Below are positions 190 through 41,095 of a stretch of 64,000 nucleotides of DNA, piece after piece. The DNA comes from Archivesica marissinica (lineage: Eukaryota > Mollusca > Bivalvia > Venerida > Vesicomyidae). A program made the translations under genes and the position numbers. Numbering within the stretch: the first letter of the stretch is position 1; each line of letters starts with the position of its first letter. The notes beneath the pieces were generated by a model. The model searched no databases, was not told the DNA's origin, and saw only the letters and a list, made by a program, of their open reading frames with translations. The DNA lies in assembly GCA_014843695.1 (NCBI GenBank), contig CM026398.1, forward strand, positions 46,909,920 to 46,973,919. The letters run 5' to 3'.

Positions 190-1210
190 CCCCCCGCCTT
201 GTAAAACCCAAACATGATAATACCCTAAATGTTCTAACGTACTTTTAACTGTTTTAGCCCAACTATCCTTAGTAGGTAGGCGATCTAGATCATTTATCAT
301 CATGTTATATATTTGTTTAATGTATATAGTTGCATTGCTGTTAAGTATTTTGACTATTCTTTTATATTCTTAACGGCATGTGTCCCAGTTCACCATAAAT
401 AACGTTACTTTGCGTTCAATAATTGTTTGCAAAAGTTTAAATGCACATTTTGTATTTTTCTGGAATCATTTATACCCCCCCCCCCCCATATTTCACATCC
501 ACATTGTAAGAAATTGTAAGAAGTTTGTCAAAATAAGTTTGTCAAATATATCTAGAACAAGCTTAATCGAAACGTTTATTGGGGCCCTATATTTAACCCT
601 CTGGAATTGATCCCCCTCTTGTGAAAACCGTACCTAAATATGTAAATTTCTTGACAATTTAGATGTCGGTAACACAATTAGTTAACTTTAGATTTCTACT
701 ATTACTACCACCTAAGAATCATTGCCTTGGTTTCTGAACATTGACTACTAGATTCCATTTCTCACAGTTGTTTTCAAAATCAGTAAACCTATATTTAATG
801 CACTTATTGTGTCCGAGAATATAACAATGTCATCGGCGTATTGTAAACAATTCCACACTAATGCCATTAAACCCGCGTAACATAAATAATGTTTCTTCTA
901 AATTATTTAGATATATTGGAAAAAGAAAAGGCGATAGACAATCCCCCTGACGCACGCCCAAAACCCTCTTGCATTTTTAAATCTCACTTTGTTTGTGTGT
1001 TATCAAACTTAAATAGTTTGCTTCTTAGCAGATTTATATTACGGTCTTGCCGTAGCCATATTCATTCTGCTGCCATCACTCTTATTGTTCCTATAACTAT
1101 TTAGTTGTTCATAAAATATTCTCTCTGTTTTCGTTTACAGTCATTATCGTACAGTGTTGTTAAAATGTGTATAATATATGGTATCTATAATATTTGCAAC
1201 ATTTATCAAT
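190..1210 (-). mobile_element. Degenerate non-LTR retrotransposon (reverse transcriptase remnant)
   Basis: Read on the minus strand from about 1.2 kb down: HKQSEI, a stop, KCKRVLGVRQGDCLSPFLF, IYLNNLEETLFM, then after a frameshift LQYADDIVIFSDT with the catalytic YADD box near 825-850. Further down are IQNVHLNFCKQLLNAK and SWAKTVKSTLEHLGYYHVW, typical of the C-terminal end of such ORFs. Several stops and frame changes show it is dead. The family was not determined. Confidence 0.75.
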
Positions 1211-1574
1211 TAGCCAATCAGATAGCGAGAAAATATCTCGAGTGCGTTATAATTGGTAAGTTAGTTTGCGGATATGGGGATATGGCTTTCAGTTCCCTTT
1301 TGTTGACATGTGTAATGTTTTATAATATAAGTTAACTCGGTCTCTGGTATGAAAACCGGTATTAATTTGTGGTATTCTTGTCATTTTAACAAAGGTATTA
1401 GACGAAAAACCATCATTATTGTTTTCATTTTACTAAAATAATTAGATTTATAATTAAACCTATCAACACAACTTCTTTTTTCTTTTTCCTTGGCATTTAA
1501 GAACATTAGAGCCAGTAGAAAACATTAGTTTTTGTTTTGTGGTTTAAGGTCGTACTGACAGCTTAGATCATATA

Positions 1575-1792
1575 CATAGTGACTCCCCAACTGGTTATGG
1601 TGGATGAAGACCCCGGGTGTCACCGATCCGAGCTGTATTTCAGGCACGGACAGGTACCCGGGTAGAACCACCGATTTTCGGAAGCCAGCAGGATAGCTTA
1701 CTCACATGAAATATTCGACACACACAGTGGAACCTATGGCGGTGAAGGACAAGTGATTTGGAGTCAACCGCTCGGAGGCCATCACAACAGAG
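1575..1792 (-). mobile_element. SINE-D copy 1
   Basis: Family SINE-D has the head GGCCGAGTGGTTA then TTGATTCCAAATCACTT, and the body GAAGCTATCCAGCTGCC, GTTCTACCCGGGTACC, AATAGTCGCCATATGACC. Reverse orientation. Confidence 0.75.
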
Positions 1793-1982
1793 TTGAACAG
1801 TAGGCACACATGTTGTATGTAGTCTCAGTTATAAGAGACACAAATTTGGAACCTTGATGCAGGTGCAAAAGTGTTTCCCCAAAGTGTTATACGATGTTGG
1901 GAATGTCCTAGTACTGGAATTGCATTATTTGGCGAATCGTGTAATATACACTCTGTGTGTGAATATATTGATGTTAATTTAA

Positions 1983-2370
1983 GATGATGATGATGACGAC
2001 GACATACTGAAGATCTTAATGAATGCATTGTCGTCGATGATAATCGTGGTGATTATAATGGGAAATGATAATGATGGGGTAATGAAGATGATGATAGCGC
2101 TGACTATGAATACAGTACTGACGACTAAGCCGTCGATTGTGACGGCTATGCCGTTGATGGGGAGACAATGATGATCATGACTATGGCGACACCACCGGTG
2201 ATGACAATGGTGAGTGTGGTCGATGATGATAGCAAAGATGGTAGCATTGATGATGATTTATGGCACGGGCAACGACGGTAATGGTTGTCGTGATTATTAC
2301 AATAATGCTAAAAATAGTAACAACATCACATCAATGGAGATGACGACATCGATTCTGAAGATAACAATGG
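1983..2370 (+). repeat. Imperfect GAT/GAC-rich low-complexity stretch
   Basis: Interrupted ATGATGATG/GACGACGAC tracts, partly open in frame but with no protein-like pattern. A poly-C plus (CA)n tract follows at 2411-2441. Confidence 0.7.
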
Positions 2371-2925
2371 TGGGTTTAAACCTTATCGGTAAAATTATAA
2401 TGGCTGATGTGACCCCCCCCCCCCCACACACACACACAATTATATAGATGTAAAGTAGTAAAATGTAAAGGGCCATACCTTCACCCATACTCAGTAACTC
2501 TATAAATCCACATCAAAATCACCAGATGCACATCTCCACATGTCGATAAACATTGCTACAAAGTTTTATGCCTGTAAATCAAATATGTCGAATACTCTAC
2601 TAGATGAATCCTCATCTAAAACACCAGACGGGCAACTTCACATGACGACAAATACGTATTCATGTGAGGTATCATGACTGTCACTCAAATGCTTTTGGAG
2701 ATACACGCACTAAAGACGGGTGTGTTTTAAAACTGTAATACTTAAGGACTACAAAATGGTCCTAACCCTAATGACTTAGGAGATTGTCAGCAGTTTTCAT
2801 CTAAAAGTTAGCCCATAAACCCTCCATGAGTGCCGGGACATACGGACAGACAGACGGACAACTCTGCCAAAATCAATATGTCTCCCCATACATGTGGGAA
2901 ACATAATGACTGACATGAATATTCG

Positions 2926-3085
2926 TAGTTACATATGTGCTTTTTGTAGTTACATATACGACTTTAGTTACATATAGGTCCATTTTGTTACATATGTACC
3001 CTGTCTGATAATCATCGAAATAGTTACATATATGGCCGTTTTGTTACATATATTCCACCTTAGTTACATTTAGGGACGAGTTACA
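2926..3085 (+). repeat. Regularly spaced GTTACATAT motifs
   Basis: Eight GTTACATAT-like copies with spacing of about 14-22 bp between variable spacers. The period is loose, unlike the other arrays here. Confidence 0.75.
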
Positions 3086-3094
3086 TAAAGGGCC

Positions 3095-5520
3095 CCAACA
3101 CTCGTCTTTGCAATCTTAACAGTGTGTCAATATTTTGTTGGGTGGTTCTTCCCCATATGATAATAATCAACATGTGGTTGGATATATGCCTTAATTGTAG
3201 TAAAGTATTCTGTAGTTCAGATTGGCAATATACCGTATTTTACCTAATAGCCAAATGCTAGTTGAAATCTTTTTCATAATATAATTTATATGTGAATCCC
3301 ATTTTAATGAATCCTGTCTGTATGTGCACTCCAAGCAACTTCTCTGATTTGCAGGTTTTCAATAATATATTTTCATATTTAAGAAAGAGTGTTGGATTAG
3401 GGAAACCACATTTTCGCTGGGCTGTCATCATAAATAGAACTTTCGTTTTGTCTGTATTAATCTTCATTCCATTTTGAAAACACCAGTATTTCAAGTCTTC
3501 CAAAGCTTGTTGTAATCGTGTTTCTAACACTTCTTTCTGAATATCATATAATGTTTTATCATCTGCATATAAATCGCTACCGGTGCTTTTGTTTCACAAC
3601 GCCAGTGGTAAGTCATTAATAAAAAATAAGAATAAAGGTGGTCCTAATATTGAGTTCTGTGGGGCCTCACAATTAACAGTTTGGTTTCCAGATATAGCGT
3701 CATTTATAGAAACAGTTTGGTTTCCATCACAAAGATATGATTGAAAAAGCTTCAATGTATTGTTGCTACATTTGTATAATGATAATTTCTTTAACAAAAT
3801 AGTATGATCTACAAGATCAAAAGCTTTTCGAAAATCGACCATTACAATTCCAATCAATTTTCCCTCATTTAGTTCTCGCATCCATTTATTAATCATATAA
3901 AGTAAAGCTGATCCAGTTGATTGTCCCGTTCTAAAACCACTTTGTGTTTTGTGAAGTAAATTGAACTGATCTATAATAAAAAGGATGCAATGATTTGTGC
4001 ACGTGTCTTTCAAACGGTTTCGACACAGTTGATGAAATTGATATTTATTGACGTCATTGGTTTTTCCACTTTTGAATAATGGTTTGACTTTTGCAAATGT
4101 CTACGCTTCCGGGAAAGTTGATGTTTGCAAACTCATATTTATTATAACAGTTACATGTTGTACAATGATATCAGCGGACAGTTTTAACAGTTTTGGCCTA
4201 ATATTGTCGATTCATGTAGCTTTATTTAGAAACATTAAGTTTGAGCAATTGCTTTCTGATATTATTCTGTGTAACTTCGGGTATTTCAAACACTACATCA
4301 ACCGTTACATGTTCATTAATAAATCTTGAAAATAGTCAAAGTTTAAGTAATCAGGGACTGGATCTTTGATGTTGGATACAACAGTGACAAAGAATTCATT
4401 AAATATATTTGCCATTTCAACATTTTGGGAGTAATCAGTTCCTTGATGGTATATCGAGTTAATATTGTTTCCAGATTGCGTTGCTTTCCCTGAACCAAAC
4501 TCTTTAAAGATCTTCCAGACAGTATGAGTGTTATCTTTACCAGACTCGATGTGTCTTTCACATGACTCTTTCCTTGCTGTATTAATCATTGCTGACACTT
4601 TGTTTCTAAGTAGTTTATATTGATTAGCCCCTCGCTCTGATGTATCTTGCTTCATTTTATCGCGTTCTTTCATAGTATCTAAGAGTTCTGTTGTTATCCA
4701 GTCTGTTTGATATTTCCTTTTAGTTTTTATTGGAACATGCCTATATACAATTTCCACCACATATTTAATATTTCATTTGGAGCATCATATATATAAACAA
4801 AGGTAAAGTCTGCAATACGTAAATATTCACAAAAGTGTTGCTTATTGCAGTTTTTAAATGATCTGTATGATATTGTTTCATGCATACTTGTATTATTTGA
4901 AGAGTTGACATTACGATTACAGAATACTGGGTAATGATCACTGATAAAAAGCGTTGGTACATACATATTGGCAATGGTTTCTTCCATGTTAGTATATATG
5001 TGATCAATCAAGATGATCTAGTTACCCTAGTAGGTTCCATTACTAACTTTGTAAGACCTATAGGGATATACAAAATGTCCATTCATCATTTGTATAACAA
5101 TCAGTGAGGTTTTTATTGAAATCAAATAATAAACGTATTTCTTTATCTTCACAGAACACATTTTCGATAAACACTTCACATCTGTCTTTCCACTCTATTT
5201 TAGAGTGATGATGCCTACTTAAATGATGGTTTACAATATTTACAAAATATTCTAAATCATAACAGCGTTTGGCATTTAATCCATCTTTAACATATACTAA
5301 AATTCCCCCACCACCATTTCTGTTATTTTGATCTATGCGAAATGGGGGTAACATTCCTTTAATTAAATATGCATTTGTATTTACATCATTTTTAAATATG
5401 GTTTCACTCAGCCCAATAATATCAATTTTATTATTATCAGAGGTCATAAGTAGCTTTACTTATTTCTTCAAATTTATCTAAAGTATTAAGACCATGAACA
5501 TTTAAAATGACCAAAAGTCA
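3095..5520 (-). mobile_element. LINE remnant with endonuclease and reverse transcriptase
   Basis: On the minus strand, pieces of an apurinic endonuclease come first (IDIIGLSETIF, GGGGILVYVKDGL, then IDHIYTN and ISDHYPVF). A linker follows (TDWITTELLD to FFVTVVSNIKDP), then RT motifs: SGFRTGQSTGSAL, VMVDFRKAFDLVDH, NSILGPPLFLFFINDLP, DLYADDKTLYD, and IQPHVDYYHMG near 3.1 kb. At least four frame breaks separate the parts. The organisation is that of a CR1/Jockey-like LINE ORF2; the exact clade was not determined. Confidence 0.85.
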
Positions 5521-15209: not shown

Positions 15210-15304
15210 CTAATGGTAGAGAACAGTTTCAGCTTATTGGAAATACTTGGCCTTCACAATTAACCCTTTCAACACCACATACCTCTAAATAGGTTTACAA
15301 CAAG

Positions 15305-16930
15305 TGAAACATTTCTATCTAAACTCACAGAAAAGGCAGCCTTGTTTAGATTAAACGATCATGTCAGTAAAAACAACCTTCTGCCGAAGAACCAGTCTGC
15401 GTATAGACGCTATCACTCATGTGAAACTGCACTACTCAGGTTAGTGAGTGATCTACTAAATGGCATGGAACACCAAGAAGTCAGTGCTCTCATGGCATTG
15501 GACTTAAGCGCCGCGTTTGACACCGTTGACCACGATATTCTAGTGCAAGTGCTGAAATCACAGTATGGACTTAGTGGTGCAGCTATTCATTGGATCGACT
15601 CTTATCTAAGACCACGCAGCTGTAGTGTCACTGTCGACTCCGCCGTATCAACCCCACGTCCACTACAGTGTAGCGTCACCCAGGGTAGCTGTTTAGGGCC
15701 CTGGCTCTACTTGACTTACGCCGGAACATTGTTCAGTGTAATCCCTCAGTCAATTTCATTGTATGGATTTGCAGATGATCACATAGCAAACAAAATGTTT
15801 AAACCAACATCTGAGGATAATGAAAAACAAGCTATCCAAGAACTTGAAAATTGTGCTTTAAACATCGATAACTGGATGAAGCAAAACAAACTCAAAATGA
15901 ACTCATCAAAAACTGAATTCATCTTATTTGGGAGCAGACATCAACTCAAAAAATGCTCAGTAACAGAACTTAACGTTGCTAGTGACAAGATCAAATCTGT
16001 GAGCTGTATATGGTATCTTGGTGCATATTTAGACGAGACTGTCAGTTTTAAAGATCACATCAAACGAAAATGTCAGACCGCATGTTCAATTTTCTCAGAA
16101 TAAAAAATATTAGAAAATACCTTACCAAAGAAGCAACTGAAATTCTGGTGTTATCACTTGTCATCTCGCATTTGGATTATTGCAATGGAATTCTATTTGG
16201 TGTTCCCAAATGTGATATCAAATAAATGCAAAGAATACAAAATATGTGCGCTAAACTTGTTTTAAAGCTCAGGAAATATGATAGTTCAAAACAAGCACTG
16301 TACCAACTTCACTGGCTTCCCATCAGGGCCAGAATTGAATTCAAAATTCTTACTGTAATGTATAACTGTTCAAAAGGCCATGCCCCTGCATATCTTACCG
16401 AGTTATTAATTGAAAATGTACCCAAGACGTAGATTAAGATCTTCAGATGTTACTGGTTGTTATGAGGTACCGTATAACAAACAAAAAACATTTGGTGACA
16501 GGAGCTTCAAAACAGTAGGGCCACAGCTATGGAACACTTTACCCGTATATTTGAGAAACTTGGATTCTGTAGAAACGTTTAAGAAACACCTTAAAACATT
16601 GTTCTTCAGAAAATTTTATTCATGGTTTTAAAACATTCATGTATTGACAGACTGAACAGGATAGTTGTAGAATTAGTATAGTGTTAAAAAAGGTTTTAGA
16701 AACAATGATATAATTTACCAAAAATGATGCTTATAATAATGATTGATCAAATATGTGTTATTGTGTGGTAACATAATTATTTTTAGACCAATGTCTTTTT
16801 GTAAATAACTAGAATTGTGTTCAGGTTTTTATGTAAGTACATGTCTATATATTTATTTTACTTCTATTGTACAACGCCAGTGAATATACTATGTGTAAAA
16901 TTAGGCGTTTTATCAAATTAAACAGTTTCA
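15305..16930 (+). mobile_element. CR1/L2-like LINE, 5'-truncated, frame broken
   Basis: The plus-strand RT domain starts near 15.31 kb (LSKLTEKAALFRLNDHVSKN). It continues with LPKNQSAYRRYHSCETALLR, LDLSAAFDTVDHDIL, VTQGSCLGPWLYL, LYGFADDH (the usual catalytic FADD form), IDNWMKQNKLKMNSSKTEF and WYLGAYLDETVSF. After a frameshift come SHLDYCNGILFGVP, LHWLPIRARIEFKILTVMYN and FGDRSFKTVGPQLWNTLP, the usual C-terminal end. The 3' end is near 16.93 kb. It lies in the intron between the two MAM-1 exons, antisense to the gene. Confidence 0.9.
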
Positions 16931-20540: not shown

Positions 20541-20711
20541 TTACCAACCGTTTTTATTCGTTTTCTTGTCAATCCAGTCGATGAATGATACGAAATTAGT
20601 GTAAACTCCTGGTCGGTTTACGGTGCCACACCTATCTCCCCAACTGACGATACCAGCCAACAACCAGCGACCATCTGTGCCATGACACACGAGGCCACTT
20701 CCAGAGTCGCC
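20541..20711 (-). CDS. Exon: protease C-terminus with catalytic Ser
   Basis: The exon starts in phase 0 with GDSGSGLVC, holding the catalytic serine; the usual GDSGGP is GDSGSG here. It continues with [13 protein letters not shown] (Ser214-Trp215-Gly216 and the Cys that pairs with Cys191), RPGVYTNF, and the terminal helix FIDWIDKK. It then reads TNKNGW and TAA. This length is normal for an S1 protease, so 20541 can be a true end. Alternatively a weak donor (AACG/GTTGGT, exon end 20549, phase 1) would skip the stop and join in phase to the MAM exon at 18.17 kb. I see no independent poly(A) signal except the AATAAA in a SINE-B tail near 20.23 kb. Confidence 0.95.
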
Positions 20712-23049: not shown

Positions 23050-23555
23050 TATTAACGAACATTAACATACCAAGATGAAAACATTTTACAGCTGAATGCA
23101 ATATTTATATCCGCTTACAAATCTTAATTTATTATCATGTCATGCTACCCGTCACAATCAATGCGAGACTAAATGCAGAACATAGCAATGGGAAATTTAA
23201 TGTCGCAGTAAAACATTTAAGTGAATTTCAGCTTGAAATAAATAATTACCGAGTTCGTATCTCCAAACCATTGAAAGACATCCATGAAAACGTAAGAAAG
23301 GTTTAATAAATTCACTTGTGTTCATCTTGTATTTCGGTGTGGCAATATTTTTCATTAGCAATTATCAAGGATCATTTGCTAGTCACTGGGTGAATGAGCA
23401 CATTTACTTTGGAAGCGATCACGCCACGAATCTGTGTTGAGGGCCTCACTTACTTTGCCAACGACAATATCATAGGTCTGGATTGTATTTCATATATCAT
23501 CATATTCCATAGCAAATTATATATATAGTGTCTCTACTTTTTCAGCTTTAACATT
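23050..23555. other. Intron sequence, nothing recognised
   Basis: AT-rich, no coding pattern or repeat found. Confidence 0.55.
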
Positions 23556-23745: not shown

Positions 23746-23927
23746 TTCCAATATGCAATTTTCAGTAATAATCCTTTCATTTGATTTGTATATAACTATA
23801 TAATTTTGAGGGCCTCGTGGTTATCTCGTAAAAGAAGGACTTTATTATTATTATTATTATTATTATTTACCATACTTACCGTGCAAGCTATCACACCATA
23901 GATACACGTTCCGTTCTGCAATCGATG

Positions 23928-24003: not shown

Positions 24004-24149
24004 ACGACCATACCATAGTTCTGGTTTTATTGCCCAACAGTACAAGCACCAATGTCATAAATATTAGTTAATAACCGCACCTACTTCGCAACCCCTATAG
24101 ATCTTGGATAAGCATTTATTTTTACAGTTTCAATGCCAGATATGATATA

Positions 24150-24210: not shown

Positions 24211-24261
24211 ATGCTACAGTTCAATGTTTGGACAGATCTATGTCATTGGCCGTACTACCCT

Positions 24262-24910
24262 GAAGCGTCCATACCACGTATCTGGGTTATTGGCGGTACT
24301 TACCCTGCAAACGTCCATGTCACATATCTGGGTTATTGGCGGTACTTACCCTGCAAGCGTCCTACCACGTATCTGGGTATTGGCGTTACTTACCCTGCAA
24401 GCGTCCATACCACGTATCTGGGTTATGGCGGTACTTACCCTGCAAGCGTCCATACCACGTATCTGGGTATTGGCGTACTTACCCGCAAGCGTCCATACCA
24501 GTATCTGGGTTATTGGCGGACTTACCCTGCAAGCGTCCATAGCACATATCTGGGTTATTGGCGGTACTTACCCTGCAAGCGTCCATGTCACATATCTGGG
24601 TTATTGGCGGTACTTACCCTGCAAACGTCCATGTCACATATGGGTTATTGGCGGTACTTACCCTGCAAGCGTCCATACCACGTATCTGGGTTATTGGCGG
24701 TACTTACCCTGCAAGCGTCCATGTCACGTATCTGGGTTATTGGCGGTACTTACCCTGCAAGCGTCCATGTCACATATCTGGGTTATTGGCGGTACTTACC
24801 CTGCAAGCGTCCATACCACGTATCTGGGTTATTGGCGGTACTTACCATGCAAGCGTCCATGTCACATATCTGGGTTATTGGCGGCACTTACCTTGCAAGC
24901 GTCCATGCCA
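24262..24910 (-). repeat. 46-bp array made from an exon end plus 5' splice site
   Basis: About 14 copies. On the minus strand each reads CATGGACGCTTGCAGGGTAA then GTACCGCCAATAACCCAG. The true exon end reads CATGGACGCTTGCAAGGTAA then GTGCCGCCAATAACCCAG, so each unit carries about 19 exonic bases and a strong GTAAGT donor. The array starts at the real donor (24892) and extends into the intron. Confidence 0.93.
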
Positions 24911-25046
24911 CTGCTTATGTATCCTGCACATAGAACGCTGTCGTTAAGCGTGGGTTTATCCGAGTACATGATTCTACATGCGTCCAGTCCGATAATCTTA
25001 ATCTTCAAATGTCTAAGAAACTTTGGTGTCACAGTCGTAAAGTAAT
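24892..25046 (-). CDS. Exon: protease part with S1-pocket Asp
   Basis: A 155-nt exon (phase 1 to 0), acceptor tttttcag, donor GCAAG/GTAAGT. It encodes TPKFLRHLKIKIIGLDACR, the Cys168-Cys182 pair (LDACR and VLCAGY) and GMDACK just before the serine exon. The Asp in MDACK aligns with Asp189 and predicts cleavage after Lys or Arg. The final 19 exon bases plus the donor are repeated about 14 times in the adjoining 46-bp array, so this exon end is a splice-site minisatellite seed. Confidence 0.95.
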
Positions 25047-26516: not shown

Positions 26517-26782
26517 CGTTCATATCCGAAACTCCAAAACCAGTCACATAACAAAGATCTGACGGCGAAAACTGCTTCCTGTCCCAGGGAAGACATATAG
26601 GACTGACGTCTTCATTGAAGTCTAGAGGGCGTTGTAAACGAAGCAGAGCAATATCCGCATTAAAAATGTAATCATTGTCCGGATGGACGAGAACTTCGGA
26701 TACATAGCGAATATGTCTCAATGCATCGTTGATATCATTCACTCCAGCAATAATCGACAGTATTTGTGGGTTCTTTACCATG
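26517..26782 (-). CDS. Exon: protease central part with catalytic Asp
   Basis: A 266-nt exon (phase 2 to 1). The acceptor is ataatttcag. The donor is AACG/GTTAGT, slightly off consensus. It supplies HPDNDYIFNADIALLRL with the catalytic aspartate, VSPICLP with the cysteine that pairs with the linker, and DLCYVTGFG (Cys136 and the Gly-Trp/Phe-Gly strand). Join to the previous exon: HCVKD then MVKNPQ. The sequence around the donor appears partly duplicated at 26.33-26.44 kb, where the equivalent position reads CACAG/GTAGGC. Confidence 0.95.
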
Positions 26783-28259: not shown

Positions 28260-28431
28260 TCCTTCACACAATGTCCTGCAGTGACGATCCACAGTCTGTC
28301 TATGATTGTTCCGCCACAGATGACGTTGTTCCCAGACCTCAATGCAACAGTCCAGGGCCACTCGCCTTTACTAGACACAGAACCACCAATTATTCTCTTT
28401 TTTCGAATCGTTTTTGGTTTGGTACCGCATC
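28260..28431 (-). CDS. Exon: protease linker, activation site and catalytic His
   Basis: The exon runs phase 1 to 2 (acceptor ccatag, donor AAGGA/GTGAGT). It begins with the linker cysteine (CGTKPKT) that would pair with the Cys in SPICLP of the next exon and keep heavy and light chains joined. The activation site is IRKKR before IIGG. R-x-K/R-R suits furin-type convertases, unlike a site cut only by another trypsin. The mature N-terminus IIGGSVSSKGEWPWTVAL is typical of S1 proteases. ICGGTIIDRLWIVTAGHC holds the Cys42-Cys58 pair and the catalytic histidine (chymotrypsin numbering). Confidence 0.96.
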
Positions 28432-30995: not shown

Positions 30996-31318
30996 CGAAG
31001 CACCAACGATTATGTACTCAATACAATATGAATATTTCATTTCCTCTTAATATGCCATAAATATACTGATCTAAGACATAACTATTTGAAACTATGCTAC
31101 TATACCTGGCCTACATTACAAATACTGACCAACCTTTTAACAGTCGAATCAAAGCCATTATTATTAAAATTGTCTAAATGTATTTACTTTGCAAATTTGA
31201 TAAGAAAATAACTTGTTTGCACAATTAAAATAACTTGTATTTGTTAAAAGCTTCTCTGTAAATCCATGACTTTGGAATAATGTGTATTTGCTATAAGGAA
31301 AGTATGTGTTTTATGCAA

Positions 31319-31627
31319 TAAATGTATTGCAGTCACTTACTTATTAATATATACATTGAACATGTAGCATACACAGACAGAGCTACACCGGCTATAAATG
31401 TATTGCAAACACTTACATATTAATATATACATTGAACATGTAGCATACACAGACAGAGCTACATCGGCTATAAATGTATTGCAAACACTTACGTATTAAT
31501 ATATACATTGAACATGTAGCATACACAGACAGAGCTACACCGGCTATAAATGTATTGCAAACACTTACGTATTAATATATACATTGAACATGTAACACAT
31601 ACACAGACAGAGCTACACCGGCTATAA
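31319..31627 (+). repeat. 76-bp tandem array, 4 copies
   Basis: The unit contains AAATGTATTGCAAACACTTA and CAGACAGAGCTACACCGGCT. Confidence 0.95.
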
Positions 31628-31659
31628 AACAGGGACGTTTCTAGTTTTGTTGATTAACA

Positions 31660-40361: not shown

Positions 40362-40768
40362 GTCATTGGACCGGAATGAAGAAAGGATGAATATATCGGA
40401 TCATTGGACCGGAATGAAGAAAGGATGAATAAATCGGATCATTGGACCGGAATGAAGAAAGGATGAATAAATCGGATCATTGGACCGGAATGAAGAAAGG
40501 ATGAATGAATCGGATCATTGGACCGGAATGAAGAAAGGATGAATGAATCGGATCATTGGACCGGAATGAAGAAAGGATGAATGAATCGGATCATTGGACC
40601 GGAATGAAGAAAGGATGAATATATCGGATCATTGGACCGGAATGAAGAAAGGATGAATACATCGGATCATTGGACCGGAATGAAGAAAGGATGAATAAAT
40701 CGGATTATTGGACCGGAATGAAGAAAGGATGAATACATCGGATCATTGGACCGGAATGAAGTAAGAAT
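40362..40768 (+). repeat. 38-bp tandem array, about 11 copies
   Basis: The unit contains ATCATTGGACCGGAATGAAG and AAAGGATGAATAA. It begins about 20 bp inside the intron after the LDLa-2 exon. Confidence 0.95.
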
Positions 40769-40787
40769 AAATGAATTAAAAATATAC

Positions 40788-40898
40788 CACAGTTTTGTTC
40801 ATCAGTCCCATATGGACACTGTACACTGCCGTCACACTGTCTAGAGATGCCACGGCACGTGCTGTCTATGCACTGAATCTGTTCATCCTGGCAGTTAT
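40788..40898 (-). CDS. Exon: LDL-receptor class A domain 2
   Basis: A 111-nt phase 1-1 exon with a short LDLa module: CQDEQIQC, a Cys in STCRG, QCDGSVQC, then GTDEQNC. The six cysteines are present, but the acidic box is weaker than usual (CPYGTDEQNC rather than CxDGSDExxC), so calcium binding may be reduced. The acceptor is tttgttgtag and the donor TGTG/GTATAT. The acceptor region has been duplicated three more times just upstream (40.9-41.1 kb), and a 38-bp array begins about 20 bp after the donor. Confidence 0.9.
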
Positions 40899-41095
40899 CT
40901 ACAACAAATTGGAATTCCGTTGTATATTCGGTCAGTTATCTCAACAAATTGGAATCGATAATTATTTAATTCCGTGGTATATTCGGTCAGTTATCTCAAA
41001 AAATTGGAATCGATAATTATGTAATTCAGTTGTATATTCGGTCAATTATCTCAACAAATTGGAATCGATAATTATGTAATTCAGTTGTATATTGA
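40888..41095 (-). repeat. 55-bp tandem containing the LDLa-2 3' splice site, 4 copies
   Basis: The real acceptor segment (minus strand CCAATTTGTTGTAG then ATAACTG) is followed upstream by three copies reading CCAATTTGTTGAG then ATAACTG, or a close variant. Each extra copy carries its own AG. Confidence 0.85.

Follow-up and report, generated by a model that had tools for sequence, protein, structure and literature searches.

A mirage-type minisatellite formed from the exon end and 5' splice site of a trypsin-like protease gene in a mollusc

How does a gene cope with an intron that opens with a ladder of copies of its own 5' splice site, and how could such a ladder have come about? The question is raised by a protease gene in a mollusc genome of 1.54 Gb in 2808 contigs, from which a stretch of 64,000 nucleotides (G000:C13:46909920-46973919), here called the window, was analysed. 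An earlier note on this DNA had claimed that an exon end and its 5' splice site are amplified about 14 times inside the following intron, and that either the first donor is reliably chosen or the array tunes the output of active enzyme. It also drew a link to intron-start 'mirages' of amphioxus, and both the term and the type of array are indeed in print (PMC3087553, PMC3902484).

The catalytic part of the protease is encoded on the reverse strand by four exons, the edges of which were placed by eye. Translation and in-phase joins define exon A (28260-28431), with IIGG and the catalytic His in TAGHC, and exon B (26517-26782), with the catalytic Asp in NADIALL. Exon C (24892-25046, from its translation) ends in ...GYISSGMDACK at a phase 0 donor, GTAAGT at 24891-24886, and exon D (20549-20711), which begins with GDSGSG, provides the acceptor of the array-bearing intron; the 3' end of exon D was set by eye, and a stop codon just beyond it is the alternative. 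Joined in phase, the four exons form a complete trypsin domain with His, Asp and Ser motifs (Pfam PF00089, 1.2e-53), residues 1-232 matching profile positions 1-220 as a full S1 trypsin-like domain, and the array intron interrupts it in phase 0 at the MDACK/GDSGSG junction. The protease thus shares the full catalytic domain of trypsin-type S1 proteases, TMPRSS11D and TMPRSS13 being its closest PDB relatives by sequence, and the Asp of MDACK is the equivalent of Asp189 in the S1 pocket. The usual serine motif of S1 proteases is GDSGGP, whereas this protein has GDSGSG. Further upstream, this strand carries LDLa and CUB exons, which are taken to belong, with the protease exons, to one gene. Downstream there is MAM-like sequence, so labelled by eye, a 37-residue piece of which gave no Pfam match; between two MAM-like exons, an RVT_1 reverse transcriptase frame (5e-23) of a LINE-like element lies on the forward strand at 15264-16100.

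The array itself (24245-24911, reverse strand; period 46 bp, 14.8 copies and 91% matches according to TRF) starts inside exon C. Each unit is composed of about 20 exon bases, GTAAGT and about 20 intron bases, GGACG(C/T)TT opens all 15 units, and the real exon end serves as unit 1. At the junction, unit 1 reads GGACGCTTGCAAG/GTAAGTG, unit 2 ATG/GTAAGTA and the majority of the later units AGG/GTAAGTA. The last 21 bases of exon C are identical to the next copy at 18 positions (counted by eye), and the register runs unbroken from exon C into unit 2. Beyond the real donor at 24891, GTAAGT is intact in 13 further copies and has decayed to GTAGTA in one more, at 24258. Alignment of the exon C end with the array unit gives a score of 75, while the maximum in 40 rounds of simple shuffles, taken over all boundary-by-array pairs, is 29. 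The amplification and the exonic MDACK codons in the units are therefore as the earlier note described them, the resemblance of unit and exon exceeds chance, and the exon at 24892-25046 is real by its in-phase joins and the trypsin match. Substitutions among the units are patterned. Among the 15 units there are no insertions: every indel is a deletion, in most cases of one base in units 9-12 and 15, and the later units, at 24245-24541, conform to this. This bias is probably residual uncorrected read error; as all indels are deletions, the copy number is uncertain and the exact indels are not to be trusted.

The remainder of the intron was scanned for homology to the 46-bp unit against 200 dinucleotide shuffles (maximum 34, 95% point 30), and eroded remnants were found on the same, reverse strand. 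About 1.7 units are recognizable at 24014-24091 (local score 42), and two units in the 46-bp register, with the exon-like CAAAGTAAGTG, at 23386-23468 (score 62); a possible remnant at 23863-23888, GCTTGCACGGTAAGTA, is borderline with a score of 32. The best remnant, with its CAAAGTAAGTG, is more similar to the real exon end than to the present units. Because eroded copies sit further down the intron, the array is old, and we infer from these remnants that a once longer array has since been homogenised to a derived unit, the edge unit being excluded.

What use of a later donor would produce can be predicted by linking exon C to exon D in silico with one of the 14 inserts between them at a time. 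All 14 predicted products read VSAANNPDM and then meet the same TGA, nine codons past the lysine and ahead of the catalytic serine of GDSG. Since every downstream donor leads to this stop before the serine, no copy, in frame or not, would yield active enzyme, and in terms of predicted translation active enzyme from any downstream donor is ruled out. The earlier note had expected insertions of 46-nt multiples usually to shift the frame before the serine; the loss of the serine stands, 'usually' does not, since the same TGA is reached in every case. For the real donor, U1 pairing is predicted at -11.7 kcal/mol, and for 9 of the 13 intact copies at -11.4 kcal/mol (range -10.0 to -12.8); the copy at 24482, with -12.8 kcal/mol, exceeds the real donor. 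With pairing so nearly equal, the real donor is not distinguished by its strength alone. Exon definition alone cannot exclude copies 46-92 nt downstream either, because their use would result in exons of ordinary size. The suggestion that the array tunes the output of active enzyme is without support, as all downstream donors are predicted to lead to one truncated product, and it is further weakened by similar arrays at unrelated genes and at acceptors and by the small size of the genome-wide tandem-donor excess, both described below. Of the two options, reliable choice of the first donor by the splicing machinery is the likelier.

Four mirages were found beyond the 46-bp array, namely at the acceptor of an LDLa exon, at the donor of one trypsin exon (L025), at the acceptor of another (L027) and at a NOP2 donor. 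The LDLa exon (DNCQDEQIQC...; 40788-40898, reverse strand) is presumably part of the protease gene and matches Pfam LDLa at 2.6e-4 with 21.6 bits, below the curated cut-off of 24.1. It starts, reading 40898-40788, as TTCCAATTTGTTGTAG/ATAACTGCC, and an acceptor-side array of 55 bp x 3.3 copies lies at 40913-41093 on the same strand, with units of the form TTCCAATTTGTTG-AG/ATAACTG (score 41, null maximum 29). What is repeated, ATTCCAATTTGTTG-AG/ATAACTG, is the exon's own 3' splice site with the first seven exon bases. A 38-bp array detected by TRF (40363-40776, reverse strand) starts about 12 bp past the exon's donor, so that arrays flank the exon on either side; no exon copy was seen in the 38-bp array, which is not among the boundary-array pairs above the null. 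For the nine exons inspected on this strand, some with approximate edges, 2 of 18 edges scored above the null.

Further trypsin exons were obtained from a genome profile search with PF00089, which gave 89 matches, the best 20 of which are the loci L022-L041. The sample comprised 22 exons: those of 18 loci, L039 (in the window) and L033 (overlapping L027) being left out, and four from the window. When all array units of the 18 loci were aligned to the 61 bases just inside each match edge, 102 pairs in all, L025 (score 117) and L027 (score 27) alone rose above the null maximum of 16, the former value being inflated because the match extends beyond the true exon end. L025 has a donor-side array (1571-2441) of 12.4 copies of a 70-bp unit over the catalytic-His end of its exon; the unit holds 64 exon bases from the catalytic His region and six intron bases with the weak donor GTTCGT. 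The next exon of this gene appears to be in L038. In L027 (reverse complement of 1231-1516) the array is on the acceptor side, with approximately three eroded copies (scores 89, 77 and 56) of the TTTCAG 3' splice site and about 45 exon bases upstream of the trypsin exon. Exon-copy arrays are hence present at 3 of the 22 trypsin exons (exon C, L025 and L027). A 31-bp array in L024 (1822-2198) begins where the trypsin match ends, at a locus in which the donor could not be placed; its unit scored 15 against the null maximum of 16, no better than shuffles relative to the last 61 match bases, and L024 is therefore not counted as a mirage.

The most extensive case, L018, belongs to a sample of 15 loci taken at round coordinates. 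It was picked up through GTAAGT in an array and not through an exon search, and of seven donor-motif arrays read by eye, which include 31318-31628 of the window, it alone showed a recognizable exon. The exon in which L018 ends matches Pfam RsmB/F (2.1e-27) and can be aligned with the 28S rRNA methyltransferase of PDB 8fkt over residues 451-519; we take that protein to be human NOP2, and the open frames upstream are likewise taken to be NOP2-like from their motifs. In the adjoining 7 kb (L042 and L043, G000:C10:10009601-10016600) a 44-bp array of 87.9 copies according to TRF extends over 250-4116. The intron is nearly filled with copies of the exon end and donor, exceeding the protease array, and contains 82 GGTAAGT sites, the first of which is the real donor. 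There are 85 unit starts, one of them inside the exon; 76 are in an exact TTCTG/GTAAGT context, and 77 of the 84 intervals are exactly 44 bp. The first unit carries an in-frame stop. By eye, a SINE-like insert is located near the end of the array, and the exon that follows reads VEENEWVIDYALKKRNVKLV. The TAAGT of the donor GTAAGT recurs 44 bp (one unit) further upstream, inside the exon, within TTCTAAGTCTGG, which suggests that this array was born by slippage at a five-base microhomology.

These cases have to be viewed against a genome that is rich in tandem repeats. Arrays with a period of at least 10 bp cover 30.9% of the window and 28.9% of the 15 sampled 10-kb loci (66 arrays; 150 kb, including 6 kb of N). 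Around the trypsin matches of 18 of the 20 loci, arrays take up 27.5% of the flanking sequence as a whole, and the share increases from 9.6% in the 50 bp nearest the exon match to 34.4% at a distance of 800-1500 bp. This profile is rough, since the end of a match does not mark the exact splice site and is in some cases a gene end, and since the 20 loci taken were those with the best scores. Genome-wide, tandem AGGTAAGT triplets with 20-50 bp spacing number 11,068 + 9,067 = 20,135 on both strands, and triplets of the reversed motif 7,902 + 9,743 = 17,645, a ratio of 1.14; the counts overlap and are dominated by long arrays, so that enrichment is tested only roughly. Among 129 arrays, GTAAGT occurs in five and the reversed motif in two, too few to judge. 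Targeting of arrays to splice junctions is not supported. On the plainest reading, arrays form throughout the genome, favouring donors slightly at most, and selection presumably thins them out near exons. One further locus (L044, G000:C18:57969556-57970428), on a chromosome-size contig, contains a COX1-like frame with four TGA codons, which is either a nuclear mitochondrial copy or misplaced mitochondrial sequence; among the best word-sharing candidates scored, the best named match of its protein is the bivalve Xylophaga washingtona (71%), with cephalopods at about 70%, and a protein without a name comes closer, at 94%. For a single-exon trypsin of this genome, scored among candidates picked in the same way, gastropods are the nearest named relatives (54-60%), and proteins without a name reach 88%. 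Amphioxus is rejected as the source of the DNA on these relatives and on the genome size.

Taken together, the protease array is probably a mirage-type minisatellite that stems from rampant minisatellite birth and persists as a near-neutral, tolerated intronic passenger. A 46-bp segment spanning the real exon-intron junction may first have been doubled through replication slippage or unequal exchange, before amplification extended the array into the intron; in this genome, minisatellites arise almost everywhere. Selection would retain unit 1 as coding exon, leaving the remaining copies as passengers. The spliceosome would use the first donor, the only one beside the normal exon and the first to be transcribed, while slips to later donors would lead to early stops and be cleared by nonsense-mediated decay; it is this use of the first donor that, we propose, allows the array to be tolerated. 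The observations behind this reading are the array with its exon-derived half, the intact gene, the old eroded copies, the four other boundaries and the lack of a marked tandem-donor excess. That an ordinary intron minisatellite resembles the exon end by chance might be entertained where arrays are so common, but the score of 75 and the continuous register from exon to unit 2 lead us to reject it as scarcely conceivable. An assembly artefact, in which long-read errors collapsed or expanded the repeats, would fit the deletion-only, mostly single-base indels of the 15 window units; patterned substitutions between units, strongly diverged remnants and the cleaner NOP2 array, with its regular spacing and TTCTGG context, argue against it and make it very improbable.

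Two further readings assign the junction itself a role. Minisatellites could arise preferentially at exon-intron junctions, one possible route being microhomology of a donor with the nearby exon. The TAAGT shared by the NOP2 donor and its exon, the finding of five mirages in a small sample and the slight surplus of donor over reversed motifs in arrays are in line with this; array coverage nevertheless declines toward trypsin exons, the motif ratio is just 1.14, and 3 of 22 trypsin exons is below the rate expected from 27% flank coverage if arrays fell freely. We regard such a preference as unlikely. Alternatively, the donor ladder may be regulatory, with downstream donors giving rise to poison transcripts and copy number setting the amount of active protease. 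Thirteen intact donors of nearly equal predicted strength, all leading, like poison sites, to one and the same stop ahead of the serine, are what such a device calls for, and minisatellites readily change length. A somatic change in the Adh3 minisatellite has been reported (PMC3087553). Against regulation, the same arrangement is found at unrelated genes including NOP2 and at acceptors as well as donors, the genome-wide enrichment of tandem donors is slight at most, and chance alone predicts a stop within one or two units; we consider it distinctly unlikely. An equally unlikely extension is that splice-junction arrays are widespread at intron ends in this mollusc lineage and change quickly, their copy number being a heritable, perhaps also somatic, dial: every additional identical donor would divert a little splicing into a dead-end transcript, so that the output of the protease (13 spare donors) and of NOP2 (81 spare donors) would track array length.

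If the protease array is, as we favour, a tolerated passenger, it is useful all the same. Identical tandem donors in an identical context separate position from strength in 5' splice-site choice, and the NOP2 intron is a natural test of a kind that is difficult to construct by hand. A genome that is about 29% minisatellite in the sample also suggests a simple cause for mirages, without special function.

In amphioxus, mirages have been described in Adh3, troponin C and the globins BflGb6 and BflGb9, with similar repeats in PGBD5; units are 10-72 bp long in Adh3 and 150-160 bp in the globins, and two BflGb6 haplotypes have six and three units (PMC3087553, PMC3902484). According to PMC3087553, Adh3 data and RT-PCR of globins suggest that regular splicing in amphioxus is left intact by mirages, and the Adh and troponin C mirages are said to generate no aberrant mRNAs (PMC3902484). 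Boundary-spanning tandem copies on the donor or acceptor side, many units keeping AG or GT, and unit lengths of the same order are common to both systems. The 46-bp units contain exon and intron sequence of the real junction, which itself forms the array's edge unit, and the splice signals are kept, with GTAAGT in 13 of the 14 downstream copies. The reported mirages are from cephalochordates whereas the host here is a mollusc, lineage being no part of the structural definition. The NOP2 array, with 82 donor sites in one intron, is far above the BflGb6 haplotypes in number, and its units, as a further difference, are almost wholly exonic. Splicing and length instability have been examined in amphioxus, whereas the mollusc arrays are known from one genome assembly alone. 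Among the matches listed in a search of open-licence literature by titles and abstract openings, no boundary-spanning minisatellite outside amphioxus was found. In potato, splice signals are likewise tied to a tandem duplication within a gene, that for RdRp, and this duplication is said to have created a new intron (PMC4974935), whereas intron novelty is no part of the evidence for the mollusc arrays. Intron 3 of an abalone TSSK1-like gene, in a gastropod, contains a 27-bp length-polymorphic minisatellite that is intronic like the arrays here but, in the accessible portion of the report, is described without exon-boundary overlap (PMC6905558). The function of the protease array seems ordinary, as far as can be judged from its sequence. 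The array is a real and well-supported new case of the already known mirage type, and the mollusc arrays look like an extension of mirages to a new phylum beyond the cephalochordates.
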